DNA from: Veillonella seminalis
GTDB lineage: Bacteria; Bacillota; Negativicutes; Veillonellales; Veillonellaceae
DNA length: 64,000 bases
NCBI RefSeq assembly: GCF_003992065.1
Contig: NZ_RQUZ01000003.1
Span: forward strand, 62,001 to 126,000
Reading direction: 5' to 3'
A program made the translations under genes and the position numbers. The first letter of the stretch is position 1, and every line of letters begins with the position of its first letter. Below, one piece after another: positions 2,494-4,705 of the stretch. A model generated the notes under the pieces. That model saw only the letters and a list, made by a program, of their open reading frames with translations, made no database searches and was not told the DNA's origin.

Positions 2494-3150
2494 ATGTGGA
2501 AAAAAGTTCTTCTGTCTACCGGCCTGCTTGCCTGTCTGACATGTCCCCAATTTACGAGTGATGCTTATACGATTTTAATGCATCAAACAGATACGAATCT
2601 GAATCTAACCTATCCGTTGGTCTATTTGGAAAACGAAACGGCTCAAAATAAGGTTAACACGGAAATCGCTGTTTACGTCGATAAAATGCGTGATTTATAT
2701 TACAACGAAAAAATGTATACGGTAAACTTGAATTATGAAACGACGTATGAAGATGATAATTATTTATCGCTCCTCATTACCAGCGGTTGGTACAACGGCA
2801 AAAGTGCCCACGGCTATTACACATCACAAGGGCTCGTTTTTGACAAACATACGGGAAATCTCATTCCGGCCTCCAATTATGTTCACCTTAAAGATGATGA
2901 ACAATTGTATAAATTAGTTATAGAAGGCATGCTGCCTGTCTTCAGTTCGCGCGAACATCAATTGCAGTACAATGAATTTATGATTCCCGATAAGAAAATT
3001 GCAATCCGGTATAACAACTATGTATTACTCGGCGAGGGTAAACTGGCCATGCTCTATCAGCCGTATGAAATCTCTTATTATGCTAACGGCGTGACACGGA
3101 TTGTATTTACACCGGAAAAGATTGAGTATATTAATAGATTGAATAAATAA
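2494..3150 (+). CDS. Secreted DUF4163/DUF3298-like protein
   Basis: 218 residues with a signal peptide (MWKKVLLSTGLLACLTC..., probable end near residue 23). The body resembles the DUF4163 plus DUF3298 arrangement seen in RsiV- and PdaC-type extracytoplasmic proteins: a beta-rich segment around NYETTYEDDNYLSLL, then a segment with VFDKHTGNLIPASNYV and a C-terminal YANGVTRIVFTPEKIEYI. A TTG at 2479 would add five residues, but the ATG at 2494 follows GGAGGT at ideal spacing. It is one of few plus-strand genes and stands in the insert that separates trmK from rpoD. No function is assigned; cell-wall or envelope sensing is only a family-level guess. Confidence 0.7.
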   Translation: MWKKVLLSTGLLACLTCPQFTSDAYTILMHQTDTNLNLTYPLVYLENETAQNKVNTEIAVYVDKMRDLYYNEKMYTVNLNYETTYEDDNYLSLLITSGWYNGKSAHGYYTSQGLVFDKHTGNLIPASNYVHLKDDEQLYKLVIEGMLPVFSSREHQLQYNEFMIPDKKIAIRYNNYVLLGEGKLAMLYQPYEISYYANGVTRIVFTPEKIEYINRLNK

Positions 3151-3155
3151 AAATA

Positions 3156-3179
3156 TCCCTCACCTGTATAGGTGAGGGA
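3156..3179 (-). terminator. Hairpin with U-tract on the minus strand
   Basis: TCCCTCACC and GGTGAGGGA form a nine-base-pair stem with a six-base loop. The U-rich tail (TATTTTTATTTATT) is on the minus strand; the plus-strand tail is not U-rich. The only nearby minus-strand transcript is from the DUF1828-like gene, which would have to cross the whole DUF6978-like gene to end here. Confidence 0.6.
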
Positions 3180-3211
3180 ACTATCAAACCGTAATATAAA
3201 AGGAGATTCAA

Positions 3212-3706
3212 ATGTTAGATTTAAAAAGTGAAGAAAATATAGAGTTTTTAAATTTCTTAAATGAAGAAAAAGTAATCACAGATGATAATATTAGCTTCCC
3301 TTCTTCTGGTGATTCACAAGCCATAAATGTAGAAGGAAAAGTCTCAAATCAACAATTTATCTTAGATATAAATAGAAAATCATTGTTAGTCAGTAGAATT
3401 ACCTATCAAAATAGAATTCCACAGTCCTTAATATTATTACGTTTAGATATCGATACAAAACCGCACCGTAACCCCAATGGAGAAATAATAAACGGAACTC
3501 ACCTGCATATATTTGACAAAAATAATAATTCGGGAAGTTGGGCCTTTGAACTAACCGATAGTAGATTAAATACCTATTTTAAGTATTTTAATTTTGAACA
3601 GTTTTTAAAAATCGAATCAAAAGATGTAAAAAAATTTTTTCCACTATTTTGTCAACTCAATAATATAACCAACTATCTTAATATTGATTATACCTTATTC
3701 TCTTAA
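3212..3706 (+). CDS. DUF6978-like protein of convergent AT-rich pair
   Basis: 164 residues, cytosolic, no signal peptide or membrane segment. The central block FILDINRKS...TYQNR...ILLRLDIDTKPHRNPNGE...GTHLHIF resembles the family I know as DUF6978. The PHRNPNGE and HLHIF motifs hold conserved His residues, but no catalytic activity can be claimed. AAAGGAG precedes the ATG at good spacing. The stop codon overlaps that of the minus-strand partner. Base composition is much more AT-rich than the flanking housekeeping genes, which suggests recent acquisition. A toxin-antitoxin or defence role is inference only. Confidence 0.6.
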   Translation: MLDLKSEENIEFLNFLNEEKVITDDNISFPSSGDSQAINVEGKVSNQQFILDINRKSLLVSRITYQNRIPQSLILLRLDIDTKPHRNPNGEIINGTHLHIFDKNNNSGSWAFELTDSRLNTYFKYFNFEQFLKIESKDVKKFFPLFCQLNNITNYLNIDYTLFS

Positions 3707-4461
3707 TTAAAATGCGACAAATTCTTGTTTATACTAGACCATAGACAAGGAACAATATCATAGTTTTCAAAGCCTGTAAGTATTGAATTATCAACTTGTT
3801 TTTTATCATTCATGATAACTATTAACTGGCTATCTGCTCTTTTACTATCTTTAATATCATTCCAAGTGAATATGACTCTTTCCATTTCACTTCTACTTGG
3901 AGAATTCATCACTTTTGCAAACCGCTCTGGATGATTAATATTTTTTTGAAATAAGAAATCATAAGTATGAACATAACCTGACTTCCCAAGAATCGAAATA
4001 TCCATACTATAAAATATTTGGTTATCATCAAAAAATGACATTACTTCTTCAAGAAATATTTGTTTTACCGTTGAAGTAGCAAGGTAAAATAAATCATTAA
4101 CATCTAACATACATTGTAATAAACGGTGCTGTGCTTCTGATATCCCTCTTCGATTTGATAAAACGTATAATTCATTAGTTGCATCATCATACTTTACTCC
4201 CTGTCTATCTAAAATCTGATTAAACAGTGATTTTCTTTTAGATGTCGAGTAAATATCTACACCCGACATTATCAAATCATTAATAATATATCCGTCATCC
4301 GAAATCTTATATTCATCTCGATCCCGATGAATTAGATATATTTGAGTATAATCATTATGTCTATCTAAAAAAGGAGTTGTTATTTCTGTAATAGACGAAG
4401 TAATTTTTCTTTCTGTCATATTAGATTCAAGCCAATTTAAATAATTCTTGACATGTTTCAT
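3703..4461 (-). CDS. DUF1828/DUF1829-type protein of convergent pair
   Basis: 252 residues. The N-terminal half, with TPFLDRHNDYTQIYLI then YKISDDGYIINDL (about residues 28-65), matches the DUF1828 pattern. The C-terminal half, with MDISILGKSGYVHTYDFLF and later SQLIVIMNDKK, matches DUF1829, which in other restriction-like proteins has a nuclease-like look (family-level inference). The start at 4461 has AGAGGG upstream. The gene is AT-rich and shares its last bases with the DUF6978-like gene on the other strand (TTAA at 3703-3706). It has no housekeeping relatives around it and probably arrived with its partner. Confidence 0.6.
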   Translation of the reverse strand: MKHVKNYLNWLESNMTERKITSSITEITTPFLDRHNDYTQIYLIHRDRDEYKISDDGYIINDLIMSGVDIYSTSKRKSLFNQILDRQGVKYDDATNELYVLSNRRGISEAQHRLLQCMLDVNDLFYLATSTVKQIFLEEVMSFFDDNQIFYSMDISILGKSGYVHTYDFLFQKNINHPERFAKVMNSPSRSEMERVIFTWNDIKDSKRADSQLIVIMNDKKQVDNSILTGFENYDIVPCLWSSINKNLSHFN

Positions 4462-4576
4462 ATAATATGACCCTCTTTCTCCATAATAACTTTTTACCTA
4501 ATATTTAATAAAATTCCATGAGCAATAAACATAGGGAAAATATTAGAAATTTTAAATTAATACTATATACTATTTT

Positions 4577-4618
4577 TAAAAAGCCGCCTGCATCATAAAA
4601 CATGATACAGGCGGCTCA
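4577..4618 (-). terminator. Terminator after tRNA-Ile2
   Basis: Strong stem AGCCGCCTGtATCAT / ATGATgCAGGCGGCT followed on the minus strand by TTTTTAAAAA. It ends the tRNA transcript. The plus-strand tail (CATTTATC) is weaker, so it may also partly stop plus-strand readthrough from the DUF6978-like gene. Confidence 0.85.
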
Positions 4619-4630
4619 TTTATCAAAAAT

Positions 4631-4705
4631 TGGTGGGCCCACCTGGCTTCGAACCAGGGACCGACCGGTTATGAGCCGGTTGCTCTACCCCTGAGCTATA
4701 GGCCC
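4631..4705 (-). tRNA. tRNA-Ile2 (anticodon CAU)
   Basis: Full cloverleaf on the minus strand: acceptor GGGCCTA / TGGGCCC with encoded CCA, D arm GCTC...GAGC, anticodon stem ACCGG/CCGGT around CTCATAA, T arm CCTGG TTCGAAG CCAGG. The anticodon is CAU. The loop and flanks (CTCATAA) match the isoleucine-2 tRNA of other bacteria, whose C34 is changed to lysidine by TilS, rather than elongator or initiator Met. It lies between rpoD and the AT-rich pair, with its own promoter and terminator. Confidence 0.9.

Follow-up and report, generated by a model that had tools for sequence, protein, structure and literature searches.

The question raised by this locus is whether two AT-rich genes that face each other and share their stop codons are regulated through their convergence, as mutual antisense transcripts of a mobile defence module, or whether the arrangement simply reflects descent. 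The genes lie in a window of 64,000 nucleotides from Veillonella seminalis (contig NZ_RQUZ01000003.1, positions 62,001 to 126,000), and the regulatory reading had been put forward in a first-pass annotation made from the sequence of this stretch.

Gene pair and match to PDC-M24

Gene A (3212..3706, plus strand) encodes a DUF6978 protein of 164 amino acids and gene B (3703..4461, minus strand) a protein of 252 amino acids comprising a DUF1828 and a DUF1829 domain. Both stop codons are contained in the same TTAA (3703..3706), which results in a tail-to-tail overlap of 4 bp. The convergent layout described in the first-pass annotation is thus confirmed by the coordinates, and the domain names given there are borne out by Pfam matches well over the cut-offs (DUF6978, E = 1.4e-29 for A; DUF1828, E = 5.6e-24, and DUF1829, E = 2.6e-25, for B). 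The GC content of the pair is 27–29%, compared with ~45% in the surroundings.

In PADLOC the two proteins match the models of PDC-M24 nearly over their full length: A matches PDC-M24A (E = 1.1e-29, residues 11–160) and B matches PDC-M24B (E = 6e-81, residues 2–248). The two genes are also adjacent in the window, as in PDC-M24. Judged by these matches, the pairing of A and B is already catalogued as a candidate anti-phage pair. Names of the PDC type denote unpublished candidates from the authors of PADLOC (PMC11811056), and our literature search found no publication naming PDC-M24. The window pair differs from PDC-M24 in that B is inverted and the stop codons overlap, whereas nearly all relatives that we found are tandem A-B operons. 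Same-strand A-B order is typical of the relatives and is absent from the window; it is not known to be a requirement of PADLOC. New in the present analysis are the clade with the flipped B gene and the folds assigned to DUF1828 and DUF1829.

Orientation and linkage across the family

Homologues of B were gathered from plasmids, phages, viral contigs and genomes. Scans of genome contigs and viral contigs with a single protein as query gave no match, and alignment queries were needed. The profile-based tally contained 178 distinct B proteins; one locus of Lagierella massiliensis (L252), with its B broken into two frames, enters it twice. A was found directly upstream on the same strand in 151 cases, six loci were tail-to-tail, and 20 entries lacked A, some of them incomplete or at contig ends. 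Tandem order was found in 151 of the 157 paired loci, and the gap between the open frames was at most 60 nt in 177 of 180 tandem rows. The pair is spread over many bacterial phyla and some archaea, with relatives occupying prophage lysogeny modules and plasmids. In the phages with a tandem pair, repressor, A, B and integrase follow one another in this order on one strand. Convergence as a rule of the family was rejected on these counts, which likewise contradict regulation by convergence in the general form first proposed. The expected conservation of tail-to-tail pairing is real within one clade and does not extend to the family.

Searches based on A returned no A without B, save a fragment of 47 residues adjoining an A-B pair. 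An intact B without A was present in at least five loci. The direction of this asymmetry agrees with B as the neutralising partner of A. Since these loci amount to only about 3% and the numbers are small, the apparent dependence of A on B is not statistically strong. Another genome of the same genus (G002) carries a divergent tandem PDC-M24-like pair (L149), which belongs to a subfamily other than that of the window.

A flip of B in one clade

The convergent loci are those of the window, of a Veillonella sp. VA142 prophage (entry L002 plus duplicates), of the viral contigs L152 and L153, and of Lagierella massiliensis (L219 and L252). Two further scans of viral contigs yielded no more members, nor did a search that covered 61 genomes from the order. 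In the tree of A the five distinct convergent proteins form one clade (support 100/94; 100% of 200 bootstrap trees), which argues for a flip that happened about once. In the tree of B the convergent members form one group (SH-aLRT 91), whose sole extra member is a truncated B from Acidaminococcus. Every convergent member has stop codons that overlap by 4 or 8 bp. Because a terminator-free tail-to-tail junction has been kept within one clade, the layout is more than a one-off.

The direction of the flip can be read from the prophages. VA142, L152, L153 and L219 share the order integrase (−), B (+), A (−) and repressor (−). As A keeps the direction of repressor and integrase in all four, it is B that was flipped, while A stayed in place. 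The five convergent B proteins share ~37–51% identity with the first sequence of the alignment, and the segment TTPFLDRHNDYTQ (residues 28–40, window numbering) is invariant among them.

Some of these loci show further peculiarities. In Lagierella massiliensis L219 and L252 are located ~35 kb apart on one contig, and A of L252 is intact beside the broken B. In L153 a KilA-N gene (L153:2444-2824) overlaps the start of A and matches PDC-S22 in PADLOC (E = 1.5e-41), which places two defence-candidate genes next to each other.

Insertion site

In the window the pair is flanked by a gene for a secreted PdaC/DUF3298-like protein (2494..3150, plus strand), which borders the insertion on its left, and by a tRNA-Met(CAT) gene (4631..4705, minus strand); trmK and rpoD lie further out beyond these flanks. 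The same site is empty in a sister species (G006), where the secreted-protein gene is followed by ~58 bp containing one hairpin with T-tracts and then by the same tRNA. From this comparison we place the inserted cassette at approximately 3151..4576, comprising a hairpin at 3156–3179, A and B. A second hairpin (4582–4616) is the pre-existing terminator of the site; its equivalent in the sister species directly follows the secreted-protein gene.

Other sister species carry different cargo in the tRNA-Met/trmK interval: a gene for a PemK/MazF-like toxin together with a gene for an HTH regulator in G005 (L104:1685-3001), and a 171-residue secreted protein in G002. The interval is therefore a small cargo hot spot, in which integrases are absent. 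No att-like repeats were found flanking the cassette. A 10-bp CATAGGGAAA repeat (4530, 4705) was considered as att-like and discarded; it lies on the tRNA's 5' side and is probably fortuitous. In an Rfam search near the pair the tRNA was the sole match above threshold. Chromosomal PDC-M24 genes of two other genomes, L113 (G030) and L114 (G033), adjoin a tRNA-Arg/Gly/Pro cluster and thus likewise have tRNA genes as neighbours; B is left without A in G030.

The window cassette is best explained as a prophage-derived copy of PDC-M24 between the secreted-protein gene and tRNA-Met. The earlier proposal of a mobile defence-candidate module is supported in this respect by the PDC-M24 matches, the relatives in prophages and plasmids, the empty sister site and the AT-rich DNA.

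Terminators and the extent of predicted transcript overlap

The terminator scans covered intrinsic terminators, Rho-dependent ends being invisible in sequence, and candidates were compared with 60 shuffles. At the junction of A and B, we found no intrinsic terminator in either direction in any of the five convergent lineages, in agreement with what had been noted for the window. The hairpin at 3156..3179, described earlier as a minus-facing terminator beyond A, was likewise substantiated: it has a 10-bp stem with a folding energy of −18.2 kcal/mol (z = −4.8) and a minus-facing tail TATTTTTATT, and none of 60 shuffles in the region scan was as good. Transcripts of B would end here after crossing A. 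A counterpart occupies the equivalent position in the VA142 prophage.

On the other side, a structure beyond B that could stop transcripts of A had also been described. A hairpin is indeed present (4582..4616); it is the terminator of tRNA-Met, however, with its strong T-tract facing the minus strand. Read in the plus direction, the hairpin remains strong but its tail TCATTTATC is weak, and it would be only a fair stop, yet it is the sole candidate for the A transcript in the window. The idea that the two terminators constitute a designed antisense circuit was rejected, because the one on the right is part of the tRNA site.

Across the clade, terminators in the direction of B beat all shuffles in three of five lineages. 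In the window the terminator lies at +548, beyond A; VA142 has one at +89, inside A, and a second past A at +542; L152 has one at +206, inside A. No significant intrinsic terminator in this direction was detected in L153 and L219. In the direction of A, the only intrinsic terminator among the five lineages is the tRNA hairpin of the window (+909), and none of the five has an intrinsic stop for A before B is crossed. Overlap of the 3' parts of the transcripts is thus predicted, judging by intrinsic terminators, to be common to the convergent clade. The extent of antisense is not fixed, since two convergent relatives (VA142 and L152) stop B inside A, and for the same reason the claim that each mRNA carries the full antisense of the other does not hold as a rule of the clade. 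Strong terminator-like hairpins in the direction of B and within the coding sequence of A were located at L112:7738-7835 and L152:2277-2490.

Judged from this layout, antisense control of A and B by convergence is plausible. The main competitor, which we regard as a serious possibility while leaning slightly against it, is that the flip was neutral: a single inversion of B in an ancestral prophage was followed by the gain of a promoter, and the overlap persists by descent and compactness with no regulatory role. Such a history would account for the single origin, for the terminators that shorten the overlap in VA142 and L152, and for the fact that the plus-side terminator of the window is simply that of the tRNA site. 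It is at odds with the persistence of the layout: the five lineages have kept it down to ~30–50% identity, none of them has spaced the genes or gained a junction terminator, and no tandem member is found inside the convergent clade.

Promoters

Promoter-like sites for B were identified in VA142, L153 and L219; L152 has a weaker, extended −10 element. For A, no promoter-like site was found in any of the five convergent lineages, as would be expected if A were read through from its upstream neighbour. No convincing promoter was recognised for either A or B in the window; the AT-rich stretch expected to hold the B promoter (4462..4576, minus strand) contained no convincing consensus. In the window, read-through into A would most plausibly come from the gene for the secreted protein (2494–3150, plus strand).

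Structure and possible roles of the two proteins

A sequence search of solved structures gave no match for A or B, and both proteins were analyzed as AlphaFold models. The model of B (pLDDT 95.9) consists of two parts. Residues 8–128 resemble class I chaperones of type III secretion at a borderline level (SpcU, Z = 8.2; SycE and CesT, Z = 7.7), together with the uncharacterised structure 3cxj (Z = 9.4). In the predicted model residues 128–252 adopt a PD-(D/E)XK-like core fold (Z = 10–12 over ~110 residues), with matches to AF1548 (Z = 12.0), PspGI and Can2 (both Z = 11.4) as well as Cdn1 and EndoMS.

This similarity raises the possibility that B, as a PD-(D/E)XK nuclease of Can2/Card1-like fold, is the effector and A its inhibitor or sensor. 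The superposition of the C-terminal domain on AF1548, PspGI, Can2 and Cdn1 is in line with such a role, as is position 168, where 79 of the 106 aligned sequences have Asp and 14 have Glu. The acidic-x-Lys pair on the third strand is, however, absent as a conserved feature of this alignment; nearly all sequences have a hydrophobic residue at position 181, and Lys occurs at position 183 in 40 of 106. The nuclease-like domain is therefore probably inactive. An effector role of B also fits poorly with the loci that retain an intact B without A, and we consider it unlikely.

B is more probably an antitoxin-like binding partner of A. The assignment of B as the neutralising partner and A as the effector is drawn by analogy with PDC-M66 (DS-6/HipAD), which pairs a HipA kinase with a DUF3037-DUF1829 protein, DS-6B bearing both of these domains (PMC13092281, PMC12548924). 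In that system defence depends on the kinase, and deletion of the DUF3037 gene is toxic (PMC12548924, PMC13092281). Like PDC-M66, PDC-M24 combines a DUF1829 protein with a second gene and would be a two-gene, toxin-antitoxin-like anti-phage system. The two differ in the partner (a HipA kinase in PDC-M66, DUF6978 in PDC-M24) and in the other domain of the DUF1829 protein (DUF3037 and DUF1828, respectively), and PDC-M66 has been tested in phage defence, whereas PDC-M24 is a candidate only.

The model of A (pLDDT 90.5) had no credible match among PDB and viral structures (best Z = 5.2). As its fold matches nothing known, the effector role relies on conservation and analogy: residues K20, R77, H85, N87, H97 and H99 are conserved, and our best guess is that A is an effector with this K/R/H-rich motif.

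Proposed mechanism

Based on the gene layout and the models we propose the following reading, which we hold with evenly balanced confidence: the locus is a prophage-derived PDC-M24 pair in which B was inverted once, A acts as effector and B is antitoxin-like, and the mRNAs are complementary in their 3' parts. The secretion-chaperone-like N-terminal domain of B would bind a protein, with A as the partner, and the catalytically degenerate PD-(D/E)XK-like C-terminal domain would perhaps bind DNA. Infection would upset the balance of A and B and release A, leading to an abortive-type response. After the flip, A would be transcribed by read-through from the gene upstream (the repressor in the prophages, the 2494–3150 gene in the window) and B from its own promoter. 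The resulting mRNAs would be complementary over a length that varies by lineage. In a possible further step the overlap may lower the scarcer mRNA through cleavage by RNase III or collision of polymerases.

A stronger version holds that the flip made a co-translated operon self-limiting, with mutually antisense mRNAs that render effector and partner mutually exclusive, and that selection keeps the terminator-free stop overlap; this version we regard as unlikely. Finally, the pair might serve temperate phages as an accessory for lysogeny control or superinfection immunity, not for general defence. Such a role agrees with where the pair lies in Staphylococcus phage 37, Lj965, Javan phages, MissF and the four convergent prophages examined, namely between the repressor and the integrase, but is unlikely given the many copies on non-Bacillota and archaeal contigs and the fact that this phage slot commonly carries defence cargo.

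Comparison with systems of overlapping transcription

For the prophage-derived pair, whose mRNA ends are predicted to be complementary, the closest regulatory parallels are found among excludons and noncontiguous operons (reviewed in PMC7154746). The excludon likewise has convergent genes without a terminator between them, which for A and B applies to intrinsic terminators in five lineages; the overlapping transcripts were measured there (PMC7154746) and are only predicted for A and B. The convergent prophages add a further similarity, as the repressor-A unit and the integrase are separated there by B, which is encoded on the other strand; the window, in contrast, has no co-directional protein gene directly beyond B. 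Type I toxin-antitoxin pairs of Bacillus subtilis (txpA/ratA) are also prophage-borne and are controlled by base-pairing of the toxin mRNA with an antisense RNA and by RNase III (PMC3531482). Their antisense partner is a non-coding RNA (PMC3531482), whereas both strands of the A/B locus code for conserved proteins. In relBE2-asRelE2 of Mycobacterium tuberculosis, a protein toxin-antitoxin locus is subject to control by a convergent antisense RNA, which differs from the present case in being a third element apart from the antitoxin gene (PMC9325379). None of these precedents of overlapping transcription involves two defence proteins as mutual antisense (PMC7154746, PMC3531482, PMC9325379).

If control by convergence is real, the family would provide a natural before-and-after experiment, with a tandem operon in most lineages and an overlapping convergent clade. 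Antisense control of a defence module would then be directly testable by comparing flipped with unflipped homologues. The folds of DUF1828 and DUF1829 provide a structural hypothesis for PDC-M24 as well as for the HipA/DUF3037-DUF1829 system.

Outside the cassette, the window also contains a 21-bp tandem repeat of 7.8 copies (1400–1562), located between a Nif3-like gene and trmK.
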